A stretch of DNA of 64,000 nt from Desulfosarcina alkanivorans (GTDB lineage Bacteria; Desulfobacterota; Desulfobacteria; Desulfobacterales; Desulfosarcinaceae). The DNA is taken from positions 4,278,001 through 4,342,000 of the forward strand of contig NZ_AP021874.1 in the NCBI RefSeq assembly GCF_009688945.1, written 5' to 3'. Below are positions 12,664 through 23,565 of this stretch, piece after piece. The position numbers were made by a program, and so were the translations under genes. Under the pieces are notes generated by a model. That model did no database searches, was not told where the DNA came from, and saw only the letters and a program-made list of their open reading frames with translations. Within the stretch, counting starts at the first letter, position 1. Each line of letters starts with the position of its first letter.

Positions 12664-13710
12664 TCAGAACCAGGAGCGATGGCTCCAGATATCTTCCTCC
12701 AGGTTCTTCTTGTCTTCCTGAAGCTTAAGGTACATGGATGCGTTCTGGATGGCCAGGCCGCCCTGATGCGCCAGGGCTTCCACCATGACCATTAATTCCG
12801 ACGGGAACTCCCGCTGGACGCCGCTGTAGAGCCGCATGACGCCGATCACCTGATCCCGCGCCAGGATGGGCGTGACGATCATGGAAACGATGCCCTCTTT
12901 TTTCATGGCCTCTTTGAACCGGATGCGTTTGTCGGTGGTGGCGTCGTTGATGACGATGGTTTCGCCTTTCAGGGCGCGTGTCGCCGTTTCCGTGGTGGTG
13001 AGGCTGCCGATTTCGAGAAATTCATCGCTGAGGCCCTGGCTGGCCACCAGTTTCAACGATCCGGTGTCTTCGTCCAGCAGACGTATGAGAACGCCTTTCA
13101 TTCCCAGGGTATCGCAGATGTTTTCTGTCAGGTTGCTGAGGACTTCTTGAATATCCAGAGAAGAGTTGATGCTGGAAGCCAAGTCCAGAAACAGCATGGA
13201 CAATTTCTGCAGGCGGTTGACCAGGCGGGTTTTCTCAATGGCGATACCGCCATGTTCGGCCAGCGCCCGCAGGAAATCGATCTCATCGGGCTCGAATTCA
13301 TGTTGGGTTCCCGTATAGAGGGACAGCACCCCGATGGTGCGATTCTTGACGATAACGGGAACGGTCAGCAGGGAAGCGATCCCTTCGGCCCGCTTGGCCT
13401 CGTGATTTTCAAGACGGGGATCGGTGGCGGCATCCGGGAATGCCAGGAAGCCTTCCTTCTCCAATGCCGCAACCACGTCCCTGGCCTTGAGGGGATTGGC
13501 ATGCAGGTAGGCGTCCGAGAGGCCCTGCTGGGCCATGGGCACGAAAACATCCTGCTTCTCGTCCCGCAAAAACAAGCAGGCCGCCTTGCCCGCCATGGCA
13601 TCGATGGCACTGATCACAATCAGGTCCAGAAGCTCCTGTTTGGTGATGGCCGTACTGAAGGCCTTGCTGATTTTACAGAACGTTTTGAAATAATCTGTAT
13701 CTCTGGTCAT
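12664..13710 (-). CDS. Tandem GAF-domain sensor protein
   Basis: A 348-residue soluble protein built of two GAF domains (about residues 20-165 and 185-325). Each carries the LFLRDE / VLIRLLDEDTG strands and the ...VPVIVKNRTIGVLSLYTG / VTPILARDQVIGVMRLYSG signature. No kinase, cyclase or DNA-binding output domain is present, so it probably works by binding a partner. Its ATG overlaps the phaC stop (ATGA), which ties it to the PHA synthase operon. A metabolic or redox sensor for the storage system is a reasonable guess but not shown. Confidence 0.8.
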   Translation of the reverse strand: MTRDTDYFKTFCKISKAFSTAITKQELLDLIVISAIDAMAGKAACLFLRDEKQDVFVPMAQQGLSDAYLHANPLKARDVVAALEKEGFLAFPDAATDPRLENHEAKRAEGIASLLTVPVIVKNRTIGVLSLYTGTQHEFEPDEIDFLRALAEHGGIAIEKTRLVNRLQKLSMLFLDLASSINSSLDIQEVLSNLTENICDTLGMKGVLIRLLDEDTGSLKLVASQGLSDEFLEIGSLTTTETATRALKGETIVINDATTDKRIRFKEAMKKEGIVSMIVTPILARDQVIGVMRLYSGVQREFPSELMVMVEALAHQGGLAIQNASMYLKLQEDKKNLEEDIWSHRSWF

Positions 13711-14987
13711 CGCTTACCTCCTCGTGGGGTGGTCGGCCCACGTTTCCGTTTATTCGCTCCAGACGCAGCTTCCGATTGGGATCTATTGGGCGCAGCTTTC
13801 TTCGATGCACGTTTAGCGGTGGCCTTCTTGCCCGGCACCTTTTTTTTCGATGCAGCAGCCGAGCGGGTTCCAGGGGACTTCTTCCGGTGTTTGCTTTTAT
13901 TTTCAGGCAACGCGTCGCGTTCTTTTAACCAGGCGGCAATTTTGGGTGCAAACGCTTGCTGGAATTTTGAACTGACATAGATGCCGATATGCCCGGTCTT
14001 CAAACAGATGTCTTCGGTGTCCTGGCTGCCTACGTGCTTGACCAACTGGTCACAGGCCTCCGGCGGCACCAGGTGATCGTATTGCCCGTATATATTGAGA
14101 AGGGGCATGGTCAGTTTTTTCAAGTCGACGCGCCGGCCGCCGACCTCGAGTTTGCTCTGGATGAGCTTGTTGCCCTGATAGCATTCCTTGATGAATTGAC
14201 GAAACACTTCTCCGGGTAGATCGGGGCTGTCGAAAATCCATTTATCCATGCGCACAAAATTCTCGACGAACTTCTTGTTGTCGGAGTTCTCCATGAAAGC
14301 TACGTATTTATCGATCATCAAGCGGGCGGGGTTGAGAAGGAGAAATCCGAAATTCATTATATCGGCCGGCAAATTGCCGAATGTGTCCACCACCCGGTCC
14401 ACGTCGACATTTTTCATCCAGATATGCAGCAACCCCTTCCTGGTGTCGAAATTGGTGGGCGTGACCGTGGTGACCAGGTTTTTAATCTTTTCCGGGTGCA
14501 GGGCCGAGTAAATGACGCTGAAGGTCCCCCCCATACAGATTCCCATGAGGTTGATCTTTTCGATGCGGTGTTTGGCGCGGATGAAATCGACAACATTGTC
14601 CATGTAGCCGTTGATGTGATCGTCAAAGCCCTGGAAACGGTCTTTGCGCGTGGGATACCCCCATTCGATCATGTACAGGTCGATGCCGGCATCCAGAAAC
14701 CGTTCGACGACACTCAGACCGGGCTGCAGATCGAGCATGGTCTCTCGGTTGATCAAGGCATACACAACCAGCAGCGGGGTGTTATAGCTCGCTTGTCTGT
14801 GCGGTAGGTAATGCTTCAGTTTGATCCGGTCTTCCCGGTAGACCACCTCATACGCTGTCTTGGCCAGGTCGGTGTCCAGATCACCCAGCAGCACTTCCGA
14901 TGCTTTGCGGACGCGGGATTGCGCCTTTTCGGTATTCTCTGCCATTTTCGACAGAATCAGATCTACTGGAATTTTGGCTTGTGGCAT
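13707..14987 (-). CDS. phaC: Class III PHA synthase subunit PhaC with basic C-terminal tail
   Basis: A 426-residue alpha/beta-hydrolase that polymerises (R)-3-hydroxyacyl-CoA together with PhaE. The nucleophile is Cys151 in the lipase-like box GICMGG, with D304 (GQYDHLVPP) and H333 (KTGHIGIYVSS) completing the triad. The catalytic core fills residues 1-360, the normal length of class III PhaC. Residues 361-426 form an added Lys/Arg/Ala/Ser-rich tail resembling histone H1-type sequences. The start MPQAKIPVD follows an AAGGGGGA ribosome site. phaE lies 168 bases upstream and a TGC-N3-GCA site is at 15027. The function is well supported; the role of the tail is open. Confidence 0.93.
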   Translation of the reverse strand: MPQAKIPVDLILSKMAENTEKAQSRVRKASEVLLGDLDTDLAKTAYEVVYREDRIKLKHYLPHRQASYNTPLLVVYALINRETMLDLQPGLSVVERFLDAGIDLYMIEWGYPTRKDRFQGFDDHINGYMDNVVDFIRAKHRIEKINLMGICMGGTFSVIYSALHPEKIKNLVTTVTPTNFDTRKGLLHIWMKNVDVDRVVDTFGNLPADIMNFGFLLLNPARLMIDKYVAFMENSDNKKFVENFVRMDKWIFDSPDLPGEVFRQFIKECYQGNKLIQSKLEVGGRRVDLKKLTMPLLNIYGQYDHLVPPEACDQLVKHVGSQDTEDICLKTGHIGIYVSSKFQQAFAPKIAAWLKERDALPENKSKHRKKSPGTRSAAASKKKVPGKKATAKRASKKAAPNRSQSEAASGANKRKRGPTTPRGGKR

Positions 14988-15026
14988 GCCATCCCCCTTA
15001 GAAGAACCGGGTTGTTGGGCGGATCA

Positions 15027-15035
15027 TGCGGTGCA
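15027..15035 (-). promoter_or_regulatory. Candidate PhaR operator upstream of phaC
   Basis: TGC-ACC-GCA (minus strand) lies within the larger palindrome ATGC-ACC-GCAT at 15026-15036, centred 44 bases before the phaC start. The same TGC-N3-GCA form occurs upstream of phaC2 and two phasin genes. It fits the published PhaR target CTGC-N3/4-GCAG. Binding is inferred. Confidence 0.45.
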
Positions 15036-15155
15036 TAAGGCCCAATGTCTCTGCAGGTAATGGACTCACTGCCCGCTTCAACGATACAGCAGCGGTTCAG
15101 GTAACGAATCGGTGGAACACACTCAGCCAAAGGGCAACGGGTTCGTCAATACCAG

Positions 15156-16034
15156 TCAACGGGTTGTTTTTTGCAACTTTTCAAGCTTTTTCAAACGTTT
15201 TTTCAATTCATAAAGTTCCTGGGCCATCTCGTCCATATCGGTCTTTTTAGCGACCGGCAGCAGGCTCAGGGCATCCTCAATGGCTGCATCCCGGGCAGCC
15301 GCAAAATCAGCCAGGGAGTTGACCGTGCGCGTCAGCGTATCCACATATTCCGGGGTTTGAAAAAGGGTCATGAAATGCCCCTCCAACACTTTGACCCACA
15401 TGTTGTAGTACATTTTTGGATCATCAGGAAGTTCGTCGGATTCGGCCATCTCATTTATTTTTTCCTGCATGACCTGCACCGTGCGGGTGAAGGGCATGCC
15501 GAGCAAACTCAAAAACTCGGACAGTGTGGACTGATACAGGTTGTACTTATCGGCCACCTGGCTGGCCTTTTCCTGATAGGTGCGCATCAGGCCCAGTTGC
15601 GGGATCTGGAAAAATTGGCGGAACTCTTTTTCGTAAATATCGGCCCAGATCCGGTTGATGTTTTCATCAATATCCTGAAATTGATATGCTTTAACCGATT
15701 CCCCCATCCGGCCAAGACGCTCGAACATATTCTTTTGCAGCTCGACCAGACTGCTCATGGTACTCTGGGCAAGGCCAAGCAGCACCTCCGGGACGGCACC
15801 GCTGCCTTTGAACAGTGCGGTCATGGACTCCGGTGTCGCCATGGCATCGGCCGACTTCTGCCAATTTTTAAACGCCGCCGCCATGGCTTCCTGGGTTTTC
15901 GATGGCGCCGGCTGCGGTTCCGTCTGAGCCGCAGCCGGTTTTCCGTCCAAGGAACCCCAAAAAGTGTTCATGGATTTCATCCAGGAGGAAAACATCGATG
16001 TCATTCCAAAAGGGTCTTCTGTTTTTTCTGACAT
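15156..16034 (-). CDS. phaE: Class III PHA synthase subunit PhaE
   Basis: A 292-residue, mostly helical protein that matches PhaE, the non-catalytic partner required by class III PhaC. Features are the N-terminal MTSMFSSWMKSMNTFWG, the central FLSLLGMPFTRTVQVMQEKINEMAE block and a C-terminal coiled-coil heptad segment (MAQELYELKKRLKKLEKLQK, about residues 265-290). It begins 29 bases after the second PhaC-like gene and is followed by phaC, so the three are one operon. PhaE is usually encoded next to phaC, which supports the call. Confidence 0.88.
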   Translation of the reverse strand: MSEKTEDPFGMTSMFSSWMKSMNTFWGSLDGKPAAAQTEPQPAPSKTQEAMAAAFKNWQKSADAMATPESMTALFKGSGAVPEVLLGLAQSTMSSLVELQKNMFERLGRMGESVKAYQFQDIDENINRIWADIYEKEFRQFFQIPQLGLMRTYQEKASQVADKYNLYQSTLSEFLSLLGMPFTRTVQVMQEKINEMAESDELPDDPKMYYNMWVKVLEGHFMTLFQTPEYVDTLTRTVNSLADFAAARDAAIEDALSLLPVAKKTDMDEMAQELYELKKRLKKLEKLQKTTR

Positions 16035-16063
16035 GAACGGTATTCTTATTTTTGGGTGAACAT

Positions 16064-17899
16064 TTACTCAATCGCTTGTTTAGACGTCCTGCGACCGCTT
16101 GAATCGGCCGGCTTGACGCGCGCCGCCTTGGGCTTGGATTTCCTGGCAGGCGCCGCCGCGGCTGTTGGTTTGGGCTTCCCCTTTCTTGACGGTGCCGGTC
16201 TGGATGGTGTCCGACCGGCAGGCTCGCCTGCTTTCGGGGATGGTTTGCGAATCCGTGTTGGCTTGCCAGCCGCTTTTTTTGCCGACGGTGAGGCGGCTTG
16301 CATGGATGCTGCCGGAAGCGGCTTGGAGGCCCGGGCAGATCGCTGCCGGGCATCATCCAGAGCGGCGTCCAGATCCATATGATAACGCACCGGACCGCGA
16401 TAGTCGCCATCGCCGAAGCGCGTATGCAGGGCGCATGCAGATTGCGGAGAAGACCAGGAGGTGGCGATGGCCACATGCCCCTTGGGAAAAGGGGCGACCT
16501 CGGCATCGATAAAGTCCAGCGGGGCCAGGGCGGTTTCTTTTTCCACCAGATCGTCATGAATGCCGTAGCAGATCAGCCAGGGAATCTTTTTTTCCTTGAG
16601 CCGTTTCAGATTCAACTTTCTGCCGAACAGACGCACCGGCAGGATGCCGTCTGCATCGATGGGCGTGTTGTAGGAAGCAAAGCTGATGCGCGTCATTTCC
16701 AATGGCAGATCGTATCGTTCGTTCTGCAGCCAATAGTTCAGTGCGGCCGCGGTTTTGCTGATCTGGCGATCCCCGTTTTTCTCGCGGGCAAACATCATCA
16801 AATCCCGATAAAAAGCCGCCGCGGGGATCTCCTGCTCGATGCTTTTGAGTTTATACACCCACCCCATGAGTTGGCCGTCGGCCACCTGGTTGCCGTTGGG
16901 CAGGGTTTTGGTGCCATAGGCCAGATCGTTGAAGCGTTGGGGCAGCCGCGCCAGAAAGCGGGCCAACCCTTTGCTGCGGGTGCCGTCCATGGGGGACACG
17001 CAGGTAATGAAAGCGTCCACCAAGCCGTCCAGTTCCCCGCTGAGAAGGTTGCACAGGGCATTATACCCACCCTGGCAATACCCGTTCAGCGTCACCAACT
17101 TGCCATGGGTATTTTTGATGGTCTCGCAAAAGCGGCGGGTATCGTTGGCATCGTCATCCCCATCCATGGTTTGCAGGGCCGGATGTGCATCGATCACCTT
17201 GAGGATACGGATATAGGTGGGAAAACCCTGGTTGGCAAAACAGTGGGCATAACTGCGCTGTTCACCGGGCAGAAACCCCAGAATATTTGCTCCGAGCACA
17301 TAAGGCGGTATGATGAGAATCGGTTTGGCGCCTGCACGCGTTTCTGCATTGGGGATCGAGGGAGCCACCCGATAGAGGTAAAAACGGTCGGTTTCATCCG
17401 CCAAAACATGCTCACCACGCTCGAAATGGAAACCGTATTCGGGGGCGATGGCATCAATGGCCTTCGGGTAGACGTTGGCCACCAGGTCCAGCAATTCGGC
17501 CTGCCGGGAAGTGAATTGAGCCAGTTTGGCCGGATTGCCTTTCAAAATTGCCTCTTGCAGGGCTTCGACCAGACCATCGGCTTCGTTGCGGGAGAATGTC
17601 TCCATCAAAGCGGCGCTGCCTTCGAGACTGCGCGTCATCAATTCGATGTTGTTCTCCAGCAGACCGAGGTAGGCGTCCAAACTTTCCGCCGGTGGCCGTT
17701 CCAGCAAACGCAGGGATTCGACCCGCTGGAAATACTGGGTCGCAAGCAGATAGGGGACATAGAAACTGGCGGTATACCGCGAGATTCCGTTTAGGCCGGA
17801 TTGAATGGCGCCAAACAGGTTTTGCAAAACAGAAAGCCCATCATAAAACGGATCATCCTTGGCGGTGGCGTGATTACGGGCGGGGTCTGATTCCGGCAT
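16064..17899 (-). CDS. PhaC-like alpha/beta hydrolase with long basic tail (PhaC2)
   Basis: A 611-residue PHA synthase-like protein. An N-terminal helical region (residues 1-160) resembles the class I PhaC N-domain. The hydrolase core has Cys275 in LNGYCQGG as nucleophile, an Asp in YGIHDDLVEKETA and a His in PKGHVAIATS. Residues from about 515 to 611 form a Lys/Arg/Pro/Ala-rich, probably disordered tail. It could be a true synthase, a depolymerase/thiolase-like relative or a granule-bound paralogue; sequence alone does not decide. It is first in the phaE-phaC-GAF operon and has a candidate promoter/operator at 18080-18118. Confidence 0.8.
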   Translation of the reverse strand: MPESDPARNHATAKDDPFYDGLSVLQNLFGAIQSGLNGISRYTASFYVPYLLATQYFQRVESLRLLERPPAESLDAYLGLLENNIELMTRSLEGSAALMETFSRNEADGLVEALQEAILKGNPAKLAQFTSRQAELLDLVANVYPKAIDAIAPEYGFHFERGEHVLADETDRFYLYRVAPSIPNAETRAGAKPILIIPPYVLGANILGFLPGEQRSYAHCFANQGFPTYIRILKVIDAHPALQTMDGDDDANDTRRFCETIKNTHGKLVTLNGYCQGGYNALCNLLSGELDGLVDAFITCVSPMDGTRSKGLARFLARLPQRFNDLAYGTKTLPNGNQVADGQLMGWVYKLKSIEQEIPAAAFYRDLMMFAREKNGDRQISKTAAALNYWLQNERYDLPLEMTRISFASYNTPIDADGILPVRLFGRKLNLKRLKEKKIPWLICYGIHDDLVEKETALAPLDFIDAEVAPFPKGHVAIATSWSSPQSACALHTRFGDGDYRGPVRYHMDLDAALDDARQRSARASKPLPAASMQAASPSAKKAAGKPTRIRKPSPKAGEPAGRTPSRPAPSRKGKPKPTAAAAPARKSKPKAARVKPADSSGRRTSKQAIE

Positions 17900-18079
17900 A
17901 TTGTTCTCCTTCTGGCCGCCCTATGGGGAGGCCGGTTCGGATGACCAACTGGCGTCTTTGCCGATGCCAACTGCTGGTGTTGTCGGCATGGGGTTCCCCC
18001 CATGCATGCGATCATCTCTTCCGTATCGAACACATATCGAAGCGATTCCAGGCTCCCGATTGCGGGGCGGGAGTACAGT

Positions 18080-18118
18080 AACATAATCACTCCATCGCGA
18101 TTGTCATAATGCGATGCA
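18080..18118 (-). promoter_or_regulatory. Candidate promoter and PhaR site for the phaC2 operon
   Basis: On the minus strand TGC-ATC-GCA (18110-18118) sits two bases ahead of a -35-like ATGACA (18102-18107). A 16-base spacer and a -10-like TATGTT (18080-18085) follow. The order operator, -35, -10 repeats that of the two phasin promoters. A CATCGC...GCGATG inverted repeat also covers 18093-18116. Confidence 0.5.
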
Positions 18119-18366
18119 ACATTAAATCGAACCGGGATACGCCGATGCCGGCCATCGGCCGGCAGCTCGGTTTCGAGCGTTATGGATCAGCAGGCGATCG
18201 TACGCGTTCCCTTGCCAAGTATCCCAGGGGGATCCCTTTAGGAAGGCCATTGGGCACGGGAAGGCGACAACGGTGAGCATGGAAAACGGATACGATCGGG
18301 GGGTCGCCCTGTCAATAGAAAAATTTTGCGGCGCACAAAAAAAAGCCGGCCCAAGTGTGATGCGCC
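18119..18366. other. Spacer without a confident gene
   Basis: A 158-codon minus-strand frame crosses this stretch but has no protein character (mixed composition and many Cys/Trp/Pro in no pattern). It overlaps the better small gene at 18414. An inverted pair CGGCGCA / TGCGCCG encloses an A/T run near 18332-18366. Confidence 0.4.
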
Positions 18367-18393
18367 GTACCCGCGATGACGGATCGCGGGTAC
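18367..18393 (-). terminator. Perfect 11-base hairpin after the 59-residue ORF
   Basis: GTACCCGCGAT-GACGG-ATCGCGGGTAC is a perfect 11-base stem with a 5-base loop, 21 bases past the stop at 18414. The T run comes only about 25 bases later on the minus strand (complement of 18339-18346). It is a likely but not classic terminator. Confidence 0.45.
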
Positions 18394-18413
18394 GGGTAAC
18401 CAGGGGGCACCTG

Positions 18414-18593
18414 TCAACTGATGCTGGTGTCTCTCCGTCGCAGGCTTTCACGGCGATCCATCCATCCGACCATCTCGATATAGCAATACCCCTCGCATGA
18501 CTTTTTGCGTCGATCTTCCTGGCGCCGCTCGCTTTCCAAGGCGGCCCGGGCACCATTTGTGCGCACGTGTTGTTCCTCCCGCTGATCGTCCAT
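18414..18593 (-). CDS. Small Arg-rich protein of unknown function
   Basis: A 59-residue very basic protein starting MDDQREEQHVR. Its core reads RRQEDRRKK, then CEGYCYIEMVGWMDRRES, then LRRR. The start was chosen at ATG 18593, with AAGGGG 7 bases upstream. From memory, short proteins with an RRxxDRR block followed by a Gly-Trp and a second RR pair recur in related sulfate reducers, but I cannot name a family. Two Cys (CEGYC) could bind a metal. It stands alone between the phaC2 promoter and the phasin promoter. Real-gene status is likely, not certain. Confidence 0.5.
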   Translation of the reverse strand: MDDQREEQHVRTNGARAALESERRQEDRRKKSCEGYCYIEMVGWMDRRESLRRRDTSIS

Positions 18594-18983
18594 TTCACAC
18601 CCCTTGCGCAGAAAGGCTTCCGGTGATCCAGCTCGTTGCCGGCAACCCTTTGTTAATGCCGATCGACGGCCATCTATCCTCCCGGAGAACACTGCCTATC
18701 TGCAGCCGAATTGGCCGCCTAAAGCGACCTTGATAACAACTGCGCCACCGGCCGAAAGACGGTTAAACCGCAGGTTCAGATGGAGTTCGCTCATTGCAGG
18801 AGCGGGGCGACAGGGCGGATTCACAGGAAAGACAGAAAACGGATTGTACCGCAAATCGGTCAGCGCAGAACGATATTCTTTTATTTTAGCGCTGCGGGGT
18901 TTGCCACGCAAGCACAAATTTCCGGATCTGTATGGATTCGATCGTCGGGCGCCGAGGCCTCCCGATCGCCCCGTCTTTTATGT
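18594..18983. other. Spacer before the phasin promoter
   Basis: No convincing gene is visible. Open frames on both strands lack recognisable protein pattern or ribosome sites. The right end becomes AT-rich and leads into the promoter at 18984-19030. Confidence 0.4.
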
Positions 18984-19030
18984 TGCAATGCAAAATTTTT
19001 GCTTGACATCTTTTCCTGCGCGTATAGATT
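18984..19030 (+). promoter_or_regulatory. Promoter with PhaR-type operator for the phasin pair
   Basis: TGC-AAT-GCA (18984-18992) overlaps a second perfect palindrome GCAAAA-T-TTTTGC (18990-19002). The latter abuts a -35 box TTGACA (19003-19008). A 16-base spacer leads to the -10-like TAGATT (19025-19030), 80 bases before the phasin start. This arrangement suits repression by PhaR, which is encoded at 22606. The boxes are seen; binding is inferred. Confidence 0.6.
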
Positions 19031-19109
19031 ACTATATTATAGCATGTGTTCGAATATAATGCGCAGCACAAACTAACCAACTTATTGTCAGGGTCAGGAG
19101 GGAAGTCAG

Positions 19110-19421
19110 ATGGATGCCATGAAGGTCAACCAACAGATGCTTGCTTTTCAAAAAGAGTCTTTTGCCGCTTTTCAGAACCTCTGGGAACTCACCCAAAACC
19201 AAGCCTCGGACTCGGTCAGCCAGATGATGGATCAGTCTCCATGGATGCCCGAGAAAGGCCGCCAGGCCATGGAAAAATGGCTCACGTTAATGAACCGGGA
19301 GCGCAAACGTTACACGGCTTATGTCGAACGGGGTTTTGCCATTTACGACCAAATGTTCTCCCCACCCAAGGCCGCGACAGCACCCAAGACAAAAACCAAA
19401 AGAACCGCCACCGCCGAATAA
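19110..19421 (+). CDS. Phasin-like granule protein 1
   Basis: A 103-residue helical amphipathic protein. It shares with the next gene and with the gene at 22859 the pattern MxxNK...F..LF/W...Q.Q......M..Q..WMP..GR.A...W......R..Y...V..GF. This marks a local phasin family that coats PHA granules. It ends in a basic KTKTKRTATAE tail, reminiscent of the tails on the two PhaC proteins. A strong AGGAGGGA site precedes ATG 19110. The second phasin gene follows 10 bases later in the same operon. Family assignment is by shared pattern and by context. Confidence 0.75.
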   Translation: MDAMKVNQQMLAFQKESFAAFQNLWELTQNQASDSVSQMMDQSPWMPEKGRQAMEKWLTLMNRERKRYTAYVERGFAIYDQMFSPPKAATAPKTKTKRTATAE

Positions 19422-19431
19422 GGAGGGCCGC

Positions 19432-19686
19432 ATGGAAATGAACAATTTCGTCAACCAAATGATCAAATTCAATCAGTCGCTTTTCGACAGCACCTTTGAA
19501 ACCAGCGTACAATTTCAGGATCAGGTCGAGAAGGCTGCCAACACCATGATGGACCAGGCCGAATGGCTGCCCGGCGAAGGGCGTAAAATTTACGACACCG
19601 CCGTGGAGGCCTACAAGGCGGGTCGCAGCAATTTCAAAACCTACATCGATGATGGCTTTCAACAGGCCGGTAATCTTTTCAAATAG
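19432..19686 (+). CDS. Phasin-like granule protein 2
   Basis: An 84-residue helical protein starting MEMNNFVNQMIKFNQSLFD, with the shared block MMDQAEWLPGEGRKIYDTAVEAYKAGRSNFKTYIDDGF. It is clearly paralogous to the phasin-like genes at 19110 and 22859. AAGGAGGG precedes ATG 19432; a longer in-frame reading from 19321 overlaps the first phasin gene and is rejected. It probably coats PHA granules and limits their size. The transcript ends at the hairpin at 19777. Confidence 0.75.
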   Translation: MEMNNFVNQMIKFNQSLFDSTFETSVQFQDQVEKAANTMMDQAEWLPGEGRKIYDTAVEAYKAGRSNFKTYIDDGFQQAGNLFK

Positions 19687-19776
19687 ATCAATCGCATAGT
19701 CCCTGTTCGCTCTGTGCCCGATCCCGCCGATGATCGCGACGAATCCGCTGCAGCCAATTCTTGATCCGCATTGTCG

Positions 19777-19820
19777 CCCGGGGGACGGCTTCGTTCCCCG
19801 GGACGATTCTTGTTTTATCT
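19777..19820 (+). terminator. Rho-independent terminator after the phasin pair
   Basis: CCCGGGG (19777-19783) pairs with CCCCGGG (19796-19802) around a 12-base loop, and a T-rich tract (TTCTTGTTTTATCTTT) follows. It separates the plus-strand phasin operon from the convergent DUF3141 gene ending at 19846. Confidence 0.65.
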
Positions 19821-19845
19821 TTATCTAACCGCGCATCTTTGGGTG

Positions 19846-22005
19846 TTAATCGGGCTTACACCCCAAAAGGTCGGCAATAGCAGCATGCGCCTTCATCATC
19901 TTGACATCGGCGGATGTTGTTCCGATCAACAAATCCGCGGCAATGGCCAGGGCTTTTTTGCGATCGGCCTTATCGGGAAGCATGCGGGTCAAGGACGAGC
20001 GTGCACCTCCCCGGTCACAAGTCACGATACAGGACTGCCGCCAGATCATCTCGCGCAAGGCGCCCCCCTCAAGCGCCTTCAGCCGGTCGTCCTGATCGGC
20101 AAGGCTCTTATACGCCGTCAGGTTTTGCCGGCAGGTGACGCAATCGTCACCCGCTAAAAGAACCATGATACGCACCACCGCCTCGGGGAAACCGCCCTTG
20201 TCAATACGGTCCAGCCATTGCGGCCGGCATTCGGTCGGCGTCGCCCTGCTCTCCAGGTATCCGTCCGGTGACATGGCGCGAACCCACGGATTATCGAAAA
20301 CCGCAAAAAACCATGATTCCAGGATCCCGTCCCGAAAATCGCGATACAGGTTCAGGCCGCGGGAGATGGCATCGGAAACCAGCGTTTCCATGGCAAGAAA
20401 GGGATTGTCCGGAGAGACCGGTTGTCGCTGGGCCTTCACGCCTCTGGCCGCCTGCTTTAGCGGCGCCATCCACGGGTTCAAATCGGAGAGGCCGTAACGG
20501 GAGATGCGCAGCGGATGCAGCTGGCGCAGTGCCTCTGCATTGGCTTCGTTCACCCAGGCCTTCACCCATGGCCGTGCCAACATGCGGTAGGCGCTGTCGT
20601 TGAAACGGGACAGGGCGTCTGCCGGCATGAAGGCCGCCTCATCCTCATTGCCGTCGTCCAGGGCCATGATGTCACCCATCTCCCTGGGCTCGAACCGCAC
20701 CTGCCGGAGGCCGTCTGCGTCTTCATCGGAAATGATCATTTCATAAAGCCCCGGAGCGAGGTAGCCGATCAGGTCGATGCTGGCAATGATCTCCCGATGC
20801 TCCTTTCTCGATACCCCCGCGGAGACAAAAATGCCCAGGTGCCCGATGGTGTCGTGGAGCATGTAAACGATGGTCTGCCCGCGCCGACAGACTTCTTCCA
20901 CACTGCCCCACCGGGCCGGGATCCAGTTCAAGGCCTGTTGAGGCGGGGTGATGTTGTCGCCATGGGAGGCAAAAACTACGATAGGGCCTTTGAGCGACAT
21001 CAGGTCTACCGGTTGGGCATTCATCATCAGCCGCCCCTGCTGGGCGCGGTTGCCCACGAACAACTGGTCCACAATGAAGTGGATCTCTTCGGCAGTCAGC
21101 ATGAAGAATCCACCCCACCAGCGCTCGAAATCCAGGTAGCGATCCGCCTCGGTGTCCACGCGGGACCACAAATAGTAGTGCTTGTCCCAGATCGTGTTGG
21201 CCGGGTTGAGATCTTCGAAACCGGCCACCAGGTGAGCGCCGTCGAACATGCCGTTGCCCAGGTCCCCCCACAGTGAAGCCTGCCATACGCCACCCGTCAG
21301 GCCCCCTTTGTAGCGCATGGGATTTTTCCCTTTCACCCCGGCCCAATAGGAGAGCGGTGCGCCGTTCAACACGATGGGGCCGGTGATGTCGGGCCTTACG
21401 GCCCCCAAAAGCGCGGAAGCCCAACCGGCCTGGCAGTTGCCGATAATGGCTGGATTGCCCGCCTGGGGATGACGATCGCGCACCGCCTCAACGAAACGGG
21501 CCATGGCCTGTTGGACGCGGTCCAATGTCTGCCCGGCAACGGGCCAGGTGTTGAAAAGGATCACATACACCGGGAAGCCCTGGTCCAGGGCCATGCCGAT
21601 CTCCGAATCACGTTTGGAACCCCCGATTCCGGGGCCGTGGCCGGCCCGGGGATCAATGATGACAAAGGGACGCCTGGAGGCATCGGGGCTTTCTTGGAGC
21701 AACGCCTTGTGCCGTTTCTCTTCGAAATCGGCAGAATGAGAACCGGGCGGCGACCGCCTGTCCTTGATCTGGGCCAGGTAGTAGTTGGTCGGCGGGTCCA
21801 TGTGGCGGCCATCCAGCAGGATTTCGTAGTCAAAGGTTAAAACCGGCGGCTGGCCCCGCCGCAAATGGTCGAGATACTGATTGCCCCTGCGCCGGAGGAT
21901 GTCGGCAAACAGGACCGACCGCTGGAAAAAATCCCTTGTGTATTCAAACGCATGGGCCTGCCAGGAAATGGGCGTCGCGGGCATTTGGATCAAATTCGTA
22001 TTCAT
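19846..22005 (-). CDS. DUF3141 protein, PHA synthase-related hydrolase
   Basis: A 719-residue protein of the DUF3141 family, which is annotated near PHA genes and resembles PhaC in its alpha/beta-hydrolase core. The nucleophile-elbow is GNCQAG with Cys191; later segments SHGDNITPPQQALNW and DTIGHLGIFVSAGVSRKEHREI supply the Asp and His positions. A long C-terminal helical domain follows (residues 420-719). The start was set at MNTNLIQMP with GAGGTG upstream; the preceding Met codon is equally possible. It lies 85 bases after phaR on the same strand, so the two are probably co-transcribed. The biochemical activity is not established. Confidence 0.8.
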   Translation of the reverse strand: MNTNLIQMPATPISWQAHAFEYTRDFFQRSVLFADILRRRGNQYLDHLRRGQPPVLTFDYEILLDGRHMDPPTNYYLAQIKDRRSPPGSHSADFEEKRHKALLQESPDASRRPFVIIDPRAGHGPGIGGSKRDSEIGMALDQGFPVYVILFNTWPVAGQTLDRVQQAMARFVEAVRDRHPQAGNPAIIGNCQAGWASALLGAVRPDITGPIVLNGAPLSYWAGVKGKNPMRYKGGLTGGVWQASLWGDLGNGMFDGAHLVAGFEDLNPANTIWDKHYYLWSRVDTEADRYLDFERWWGGFFMLTAEEIHFIVDQLFVGNRAQQGRLMMNAQPVDLMSLKGPIVVFASHGDNITPPQQALNWIPARWGSVEEVCRRGQTIVYMLHDTIGHLGIFVSAGVSRKEHREIIASIDLIGYLAPGLYEMIISDEDADGLRQVRFEPREMGDIMALDDGNEDEAAFMPADALSRFNDSAYRMLARPWVKAWVNEANAEALRQLHPLRISRYGLSDLNPWMAPLKQAARGVKAQRQPVSPDNPFLAMETLVSDAISRGLNLYRDFRDGILESWFFAVFDNPWVRAMSPDGYLESRATPTECRPQWLDRIDKGGFPEAVVRIMVLLAGDDCVTCRQNLTAYKSLADQDDRLKALEGGALREMIWRQSCIVTCDRGGARSSLTRMLPDKADRKKALAIAADLLIGTTSADVKMMKAHAAIADLLGCKPD

Positions 22006-22090
22006 CATGGCACCTCGGATCTGTTTGACAAACGGAAGAAGGACTGAGCAACGCGGCAGCAAACGCACATCGGCGGATAAAGCCGGATGG

Positions 22091-22606
22091 CTATGCACCG
22101 GATTCATTTTCGTCACTGGTGTCCTGCGCGTCCCGATCCTTCCGCTCTTTTTGGGCGGCGGGCGCACCGGACAAGCCGAACATTTCCATCATGGCGTTGA
22201 CGGGAGCACCGCCGGGCATCATCTCCGGCATGCGCCGGGACATATCCAGCCCCATATCCAGCCATTGGCCGAACTGTTCGTCAAAAGCCTTCTTGGTCTG
22301 CAGGTAGTTTTGGATGGTTTTTTGAAAGTATTTGTCGAAAAACTCCCCCAGAGCATTGTCGCCATAGCGGATGATCAGATGCAAAACCGGAACCGGCAAC
22401 AGACTATTTTTGCGCTTGGCCACCTCCAAGACAATCTGGGTAAGAATGAAGGCGGTCACATCCTCTTTGGTGCCGGCGTCCTGAATCTGCACCTCTTCAC
22501 CCGAGCGGATCATCCCGGCCACATCTTCCAGGGTGACATAGCAGCTCTTGCGGGTGTCGTATAAGCGTCGGTTGCTGTATTTTTTTAATATCAAAGGGTT
22601 AGACAT
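22091..22606 (-). CDS. phaR: PhaR, PHA synthesis repressor
   Basis: A 171-residue regulator. The N-terminal PHB_acc_N domain (ILKKYSNRRLYDTRKSCYVTL, then DVAGMIRSGEEVQIQDAGTKEDVT) is the DNA- and polymer-binding module. A helical PHB_acc domain follows (about residues 65-130). PhaR represses phasin and synthase genes until polymer titrates it off DNA. The start at 22606 follows GAGGAGG. A 10-base perfect inverted repeat lies 41 bases upstream, and TGC-N3-GCA sites occur in front of at least four genes in this locus, consistent with a local regulon. Confidence 0.93.
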   Translation of the reverse strand: MSNPLILKKYSNRRLYDTRKSCYVTLEDVAGMIRSGEEVQIQDAGTKEDVTAFILTQIVLEVAKRKNSLLPVPVLHLIIRYGDNALGEFFDKYFQKTIQNYLQTKKAFDEQFGQWLDMGLDMSRRMPEMMPGGAPVNAMMEMFGLSGAPAAQKERKDRDAQDTSDENESGA

Positions 22607-22646
22607 GGTTGCTTTCTGCCTCCTCTTTCGGCTCGGTTGCACCATC

Positions 22647-22672
22647 GTTTTTTTGCTACACTGCAAAAAAAC
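22647..22672 (-). promoter_or_regulatory. Perfect inverted repeat upstream of phaR
   Basis: GTTTTTTTGC-TACACT-GCAAAAAAAC has perfect 10-base arms and a TGC-N6-GCA core, 41 bases before the phaR start. It may be an autoregulatory PhaR operator, although the spacing differs from the TGC-N3-GCA sites at the target genes. A transcription terminator is the other reading. Confidence 0.5.
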
Positions 22673-22753
22673 AAATGACCGCCATCGTCGATTACGGCCT
22701 ACGTTGTAATATATGCAATATCGGCAAAGATACAACCTGAATTAACAGTTTTT

Positions 22754-22802
22754 GTGCATCGCACCATTTTTCCATTGACATTGTCCACCGGGGACCTATA
22801 TT
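22754..22802 (+). promoter_or_regulatory. Promoter with PhaR-type operator for phasin 3 and phaJ
   Basis: The palindrome GTGC-ATC-GCAC (22754-22764) lies 10 bases ahead of a -35 box TTGACA (22775-22780). A 16-base spacer and the -10 box TATATT (22797-22802) follow. The operator core TGCATCGCA is identical to that of the phaC2 promoter on the other strand. Confidence 0.65.
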
Positions 22803-23133: not shown

Positions 23134-23565
23134 ATGACTGGCAGAACCTTCGATCAGCTTACCGTCGGAGATGCGGACCGGTTCACGAAAACCGTGACCG
23201 ATGCCGACGTCTACCTGTTTGCCGGCGTCACCGGAGACCTCAACCCCGCGCACGTCGATGAAACTTACGCGCAAGGTACATTTTTCAAAACACGCATCGC
23301 CCACGGCATGCTGTCTGCCGGGTTTATCTCCGCGGTGATCGGTATGCGCCTGCCGGGTCCGGGGACGGTGTACATGCGGCAGGAGCTGAATTTTGTGGCA
23401 CCGGTACGCATCGGGGATACGGTTACCGCAACGGTGGAGGTCATCGAAAAGCTGGGAGAGAAAAAACGGGTGCGCCTGAAAACCACCTGCGTGAATCAGG
23501 ACGGAACCACGGTCCTGGAGGGAGAGGCCCTGGTGAGCCCTCCCCGGCCACCGAAGACCGCCTGA
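23134..23565 (+). CDS. phaJ: PhaJ-type (R)-specific enoyl-CoA hydratase (MaoC family)
   Basis: A 143-residue single hot-dog-fold protein. The hydratase 2 motif FAGVTGDLNPAHVDETYA (about residues 29-46) carries the catalytic Asp and His. It hydrates trans-2-enoyl-CoA to (R)-3-hydroxyacyl-CoA, the monomer for PhaEC. This would link fatty acid oxidation to polymer synthesis, which matters because no phaA or phaB is present in the window. It is co-transcribed with phasin 3. A related MaoC enzyme with another substrate remains possible. Confidence 0.85.
   Translation: MTGRTFDQLTVGDADRFTKTVTDADVYLFAGVTGDLNPAHVDETYAQGTFFKTRIAHGMLSAGFISAVIGMRLPGPGTVYMRQELNFVAPVRIGDTVTATVEVIEKLGEKKRVRLKTTCVNQDGTTVLEGEALVSPPRPPKTA

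Follow-up and report, generated by a model that had tools for sequence, protein, structure and literature searches.

The DNA considered here is a window of 64,000 nucleotides from Desulfosarcina alkanivorans (contig NZ_AP021874.1, positions 4,278,001 to 4,342,000), which carries a cluster of polyhydroxyalkanoate (PHA) genes together with phaR, a gene for a regulator of the PhaR family. A small set of palindromic sites in the spacers of this cluster very probably represents the operators of the cluster-encoded PhaR, which would act as a PHA-sensing repressor of the phasin genes; binding, repression and release by polymer are carried over here from the PhaR proteins of Alpha- and Betaproteobacteria. 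A first-pass annotation of the same DNA had proposed a local PhaR regulon, and this proposal, with binding still a matter of prediction, finds support in the identity of the motif with published PhaR motifs, in the rarity of the full motif and in its conservation across the order. The switch itself can be regarded as well supported and as being of an already known kind. Coordinates of the genes, sites and promoters are collected in Table 1.

In the scheme proposed, an oligomer of PhaR would read TNN-TGC-RNY-GCA-NNA, a palindrome of 15 bp whose arms are AT-rich, and three promoters would be tagged by it approximately one helical turn before their TTGACA box, namely those of phasin-like genes 1 and 2 (core at 18984), of phasin-like gene 3 and phaJ (22755) and of the phaC2-like gene (18327). 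For as long as no polymer is present, free PhaR would sit on these operators and keep phasin transcription low, while formation of granules would draw PhaR onto the polymer and so open the phasin operons; a weaker copy with one mismatch in the phaR leader (22654-22668) might provide for self-control. Repression by free PhaR and its release by nascent polymer have both been reported for other PhaR proteins (PMC12542648, PMC12849132).

The bare form of the element, TGC-N3-GCA, is a very common word. Searches for full pattern matches over the 7.32-Mb genome, from which all of the genome-wide counts given here derive, return 2396 copies of it, for which reason it was rejected as evidence, and over the window as a whole it is unenriched (19 copies as against 25.2 expected from shuffles). 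Both of these figures would be in keeping with the idea that the four sites of the first-pass annotation were merely picked by chance from among many, and the copies at 15027, 18902 and 19060 could easily have arisen by chance. As an account of the whole set, however, chance is extremely improbable. The three PHA spacers, amounting together to 1630 bp, contain 7 copies where the genome rate predicts 0.53, a number reached by none of 2000 dinucleotide shuffles, which bears out the enrichment near PHA genes that had been put forward as a check. Of the 17 genomic matches to an armed pattern like that of Sinorhizobium meliloti, WNWDNNTGCRNYGCANNHWNW, 4 are in the cluster (reversed control, 5), and the 15-mer derived from relatives, TNNTGCRNYGCANNA, has 27 sites, of which 5 are in the cluster (15024, 18107, 18324, 18981 and 22752; reversed control, 7), while the two combined, WNWTNNTGCRNYGCANNAWNW, leave just 4 sites in the genome, all of them in the PHA cluster (18104, 18321, 18978 and 22749; reversed control, 0). 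Refinement of the 15-mer drew on 68 sites, one of them from the window itself, so that it is not wholly independent, but its T at -3 and A at +11 recur in the Ralstonia eutropha motif YTKNTGCRNYGCANMAR, which was met only after the refinement. Outside the cluster, 20 of the 22 15-mer sites and 12 of the 13 armed sites fall inside open reading frames (ORFs; these were placed using a crude longest-ORF caller), and none fits both patterns. Taken with the order-wide conservation described below, these results mean that chance is refuted for sites 18327, 18984 and 22755, and that it stands for 15027.

All four TGC-N3-GCA sites noted at PHA genes in the first-pass annotation are present as given there (15027, 18110, 18984 and 22755), and all fit TGCRNYGCA, the PhaR consensus derived from Bradyrhizobium footprints. 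They read TGCACCGCA at 15027-15035 and TGCATCGCA at 18110-18118, both on the minus strand, TGCAATGCA at 18984-18992, and TGCATCGCA once more at 22755-22763. Three of them had been placed 2 to 11 bases before a -35 box, in agreement with the measured gaps between core and box of 10 bp (TTGACA at 19003), 11 bp (TTGACA at 22775) and 2 bp (ATGACA at 18107, minus strand). When aligned with same-genus genomes, site 22755 proved to be kept in G189, and sites 18984 and 18327 to be kept in G209, both with their -35 boxes. The second of this last pair, at 18327-18335, had gone unlisted in the annotation and yet ranks among the genome's four best; it is one of three further TGC-N3-GCA copies in the PHA spacers, the others being those at 18902 and 19060, neither of which fits the RNY centre. 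Since relatives also have tandem sites, spaced by 65-146 bp (L251, L255 and L256), site 18110 may be a genuine accessory site, the second one for phaC2.

Across the order, PF07879 is present in 96 of 194 genomes, and 102 loci with a PhaR-type gene, the window included, were examined. Scores against a profile built during the analysis divide these into two groups on either side of a gap from 130.6 to 119.9: group A, to which the window belongs, comprises 76 loci, and group B comprises 26. TGCRNYGCA is found no more than 350 bp upstream of phaR at 61 of the 76 group A loci (68 sites) and at none of the 26 in group B; over all 106 usable hits, which include a few repeats, there are 70 sites as against 1.44 in mononucleotide shuffles and 2 in the reversed control. 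An unbiased scan of 832 trinucleotide palindromes (gaps of 0-12) likewise ranks TGC-N3-GCA first in group A, where it lies upstream of phaR in 62 of 75 loci as against 6.2 expected from dinucleotide shuffles. At 54 of the 68 sites the core is followed after 9-12 bp by TTGAC, facing away from phaR, matches facing phaR being no more than scattered singles. These 54 promoters have the form TTGACA-N16-TATAAT, with at least five of six matches in the -10 box of 40 of them, and the -35 start comes 14-17 bp after the centre of the core; downstream of the -35 box no second operator was found in any of the 54, nor was a phaR-facing promoter found at a constant position.

Counting the 15-mer by gene class (no more than 300 bp upstream, window included) gives 56 of 64 first-in-operon phasin-like genes (of 10000 windows of 300 bp taken at random, 152 contain it), and very much lower figures for the other classes: phaC 1/18, phaE 0/25, phaJ 0/18, DUF3141 1/10 and phaC2 2/40. 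A comparison of these promoters in related genomes had been suggested in the annotation, and it is at the phasin promoters that the TGC-N3-GCA core turns out to be conserved. Where phaR has a divergent phasin gene the site is present in 54 of 56 cases, and where it has none in 7 of 20. Because of this association and of the gene-class counts, the site is assigned to the phasin promoters rather than to phaR; judged by its sequence context, the TGCRNYGCA element is a phasin-promoter operator. Twenty regions away from phaR, picked by eye from the list of full-motif sites in relatives, tell a similar story, in that they contain 23 full-motif sites, 11 of which have TTGAC 8-12 bp further on, facing a phasin gene (10) or phaC2 (1). 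Among the remaining 12, 5 adjoin PHA genes and 7 are in regions lacking any PHA match. The number of full-motif sites per genome ranges from 1 to 9 (20 genomes).

A number of observations weigh against the proposed reading. At the level of the proteins, PhaR of the window scores 98.3 bits against the equivalog model TIGR01848, which is below the cut-off of 109.45 although the whole model is covered (2-107 of 107), and for this reason it is named here as a member of the PhaR family rather than as a certified equivalog; moreover, at E values up to 10 its only Pfam match is PHB_acc_N, and no polymer-binding domain is matched. None of the three phasin-like proteins of the window matches the curated phasin families (PF05597 and TIGR01837), and the label “phasin-like” was given because of their size, their company and the operator; 2 of 20 aligned phasin-like homologues do match PF05597 weakly, with a best E of 2.1e-4. 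At the level of the sites, 15 of the 76 group A loci have none (L091 among them, which came without upstream sequence), and the hexamer 17 bp beyond the -35 box of site 18327 is TATCCG, a poor -10, the corresponding promoter being missing from the promoter list. The phaC2 site of the annotation, 18110, does fit the full motif, but its core is broken in G209, where the unlisted 18327 is kept. As to 15027, which had been counted as part of the set, the upstream spacers of 15 other phaC loci of the family contain no such site (0/15), and its closeness to the start of phaC leaves no room for the usual geometry; it is probably a chance or private occurrence that falls outside the PhaR operator set. 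Lastly, where there is but one site, with its centre 14-17 bp ahead of the -35 start, this position by itself would fit repression or activation alike, and activation of phaP3 by PhaR from an upstream site is reported for R. eutropha (PMC12849132).

These last points raise the possibility that PhaR does bind, but that it activates the phasin promoters from one operator, flanked by AT-rich arms and located at about -50, which could bring it next to the alpha subunit of RNA polymerase. The fixed spacing, and the fact that no second site lies over the promoter, would both suit such an arrangement. On the other hand, near-consensus -35 and -10 boxes should need no activator, while in Bradyrhizobium diazoefficiens the phaP1 promoter, which has PhaR sites 6 bp upstream and 6 bp downstream of its -35 box, rises about 50-fold on loss of phaR (PMC6201568), and in R. 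eutropha the phaP1 site BS1, directly upstream of -35, takes part in repression (PMC12849132). It is because of the near-consensus boxes and of the B. diazoefficiens phaP1 precedent that repression is favoured, activation being considered unlikely.

A further alternative is that some other regulator happens to share both the palindrome and the PHA genes. PhaR binding being a prediction, such a regulator would leave room for those phaR loci that have the site although no divergent phasin gene was detected at them, but the motif equals published PhaR motifs and, more specifically, it goes with one type of PhaR and not with the other, so that this explanation appears very improbable. In an enlarged set, TGCRNYGCA lies upstream of 61 of 75 group A genes and 1 of 42 group B genes.

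Proteins of group B, which form a paralogous PhaR group, are about 195 aa long, with the sequence KKYANRKLYDT, and are absent from the D. alkanivorans genome, in which the phaR of the window is the sole match to PF07879. The palindrome that ranks first of the 832 upstream of group B genes is ACG-N5-CGT (12 of 26 loci, as against 1.3 expected), and in the enlarged set TRACGCRNYGCGTYA precedes 14 of 42 B genes and none of the 75 A genes; loci that have it upstream of group B genes with PF07879 are L104, L110, L112, L117, L124, L148, L149, L155, L161 and L164. It occurs in 12 of 17 genomes, with 0-3 copies in each (reversed control, 4 in all), and is missing from G000, G117, G054 and G168, and also from G035 despite its B-type genes. 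Some sites of this kind lie beside genes for wax ester synthase/diacylglycerol acyltransferase (DGAT; L224 and L239), patatin (L225, L232 and L239) and an AMP-binding protein (L224), as well as beside phasin-domain genes (L239, 34.3 bits; L224, 27.7 bits, just under the cut-off of 28.8), while others, for instance that in L223, are inside an unrelated ORF. It is conceivable, and we put it forward tentatively, that two operator specificities with a single geometry have arisen within the PhaR family of this order, TNN-TGC-RNY-GCA-NNA for PhaR proper at phasin promoters and TRA-CGC-RNY-GCG-TYA for group B, differing by a change of the outer base pair in each half-site, and that group B governs a second storage programme concerned with neutral lipid (phasin-domain proteins, wax ester synthase/DGAT and patatin). 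The group B palindrome is best treated as a lead rather than a result, but its shifted operator could make the choice of DNA by PhaR testable by comparison.

The leader of phaR itself presents a rather different case. The annotation had described a perfect 10-base inverted repeat at 22647-22672, and this is real, with a 6-base loop, but the TGC-N6-GCA core that had been read within it fits less well than a TGC-N3-GTA with one mismatch; the resulting site, TTTTGCAGTGTAGCA, differs from the 15-mer by a single change of C to T. TGCARTGTR is also found upstream of phaR in G189, G208 and G209, though not in the stretches inspected of G204 and G207. A gap in a two-sequence alignment with G189 had at one point made the phaR element appear not to be conserved, an idea that was dropped after the raw sequences showed TGCARTGTR. 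The long perfect repeat is not general, arms of at least 9 within the last 110 bp being found at 3 of 76 loci, and TGC-N6-GCA precedes phaR at 8 of 76. In the last 123 bp before phaR, one-mismatch sites are present at 17 of 75 group A loci as against 0.4 expected and perfect ones at 10 as against 0.0 (shuffles), several of the near-phaR sites being the phasin operator itself, lying close by (e.g. L022, L031 and L047). In 15 of these 17 cases the mismatch is in the phaR-proximal half. The pattern suggests a weakened self-operator, which would be the simplest reading of the leader site, and on that basis self-control is a possibility.

Comparison with known PhaR systems shows both likenesses and differences. 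The first-pass annotation had quoted the published targets as CTGC-N3/4-GCAG, a form better given as TGCRNYGCA or YTKNTGCRNYGCANMAR; the 15-mer of the window agrees with the latter, with TGCRNYGCASMA and with TG[N]TGC[N]3GCAA. The motif TGCRNYGCASMA comes from footprinted sites of B. diazoefficiens, and the five 15-mer sites of the window fit TGCRNYGCA plus the final A; phasin promoters are the main targets there and the main predicted ones here, and the upstream site of phaP1 is comparably placed, but B. diazoefficiens has two sites flanking -35 and a wide regulon (PMC6201568), whereas here a lone site lies 9-12 bp ahead of the box and each genome has few full-motif sites. In R. eutropha H16, YTKNTGCRNYGCANMAR is found at phaP1 and phaP3 and is the same palindrome down to the T at -3 and the A at +11, the difference being that at phaP1 a second region surrounds the start site (PMC12849132), whereas no second site was found over the promoter in the 54 promoters analysed. 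The S. meliloti AniA/PhaR motif, WNWD2NYGCRNYGCRNH2WNW, shares the AT-rich arms, and the S. meliloti phaR region has only sub-threshold and weakly bound sites, resembling in this the one-mismatch leader site, but its phaP1 and phaP2 have two copies flanking -35, unlike the lone site here (PMC12542648). For Herbaspirillum seropedicae PhbF the motif is TG[N]TGC[N]3GCAA, with the same core and T at -3, and PhbF represses a phasin gene as well as itself; its phbF site, however, has a full core and lies downstream of a putative sigma-70 promoter, whereas the phaR-leader site here has a degenerate half (PMC3206438).

Table 1 Features of the PHA cluster, in coordinates of the window.
Feature	Position	Strand	Remarks
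phaC, class III PHA synthase	13707..14987	-	TIGR01836 426.3 bits (cut-off 365.3)
Doubtful site upstream of phaC	15024..15038	-	fits 15-mer, without AT-rich arms
phaE, class III PHA synthase subunit	15156..16034	-	PF09712 80.2 bits (cut-off 25.7)
phaC2-like gene, 611 aa, remote PHA-synthase relative	16064..17899	-	TIGR01836 22.4 bits; homologues beside phasins in relatives
phaC2 site of first-pass annotation	18107..18121	-	full motif, but 2 bp before ATGACA, not 9-12 bp before TTGAC
Predicted PhaR operator facing phaC2	18324..18338	-	11 bp before TTGACA (18315-18310)
Predicted PhaR operator, phasin1-phasin2 promoter	18981..18995	+	10 bp before TTGACA
Sigma-70-like promoter, phasin1-phasin2	19003..19030	+	TTGACA-N16-TAGATT, 10/12 matches
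Phasin-like gene 1, 103 aa	19110..19421	+	
Phasin-like gene 2, 84 aa	19432..19686	+	
DUF3141 protein (PF11339)	19846..22008	-	746.2 bits; start codon uncertain
phaR, PHB_acc_N-domain PhaR-family regulator, 171 aa	22091..22606	-	PF07879 91.8 bits (cut-off 25)
One-mismatch predicted PhaR site, phaR leader	22654..22668	-	TTTTGCAGTGTAGCA; within inverted repeat 22647-22672
Predicted PhaR operator, phasin3-phaJ promoter	22752..22766	+	15-mer TNNTGCRNYGCANNA, 11 bp before TTGACA
Sigma-70-like promoter, phasin3-phaJ	22775..22802	+	TTGACA-N16-TATATT, 11/12 matches
Phasin-like gene 3, 83 aa	22859..23110	+	40% and 31% identity to the other two
phaJ, MaoC-type (R)-enoyl-CoA hydratase	23134..23565	+	PF01575 86.8 bits

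Of the remaining proteins, PhaE falls below the cut-off of TIGR01834 (58.6 as against 154.95), and both subunits that define a class III PHA synthase, PhaC and PhaE, are present in the window. The phaC2-like protein reaches the cut-off of no curated PhaC family (its TIGR01836 score being far short of the 365.3 required) and has no Pfam match. No solved structure was found to match PhaR.

Searches of the open-licence PMC literature turned up no paper that deals with PhaR operators of sulfate reducers. The present results would add a further order to the range of a polymer-sensing regulon known from Alpha- and Betaproteobacteria. This order has dissimilatory sulfite reductase, dsrA scoring above the cut-off in 19 of the 21 genomes examined, that of D. 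alkanivorans included. The operator is defined, its position at the promoter is fixed, and the list of targets is short. The operator also allows phasin genes to be found that family models do not recognise.

The gene for the DUF3141 protein lies directly downstream of phaR in the window and adjoins phaR also in L045, L063 and L064, while a DUF3141 gene in L252 is preceded, at a distance of 61 bp, by a full-motif site. In G209 there is a phasin-like reading frame (L184, 2441-2665) between the phaC2-facing operator and phaC2; none was found at the matching place in the window (17900-18310), which may have lost the gene. Between the phaC2-facing and phasin1-facing sites, the stretch 18440-18520 is strongly conserved with G209, and lies inside a minus-strand reading frame (18414-18692) that is possibly the gene for a small protein.

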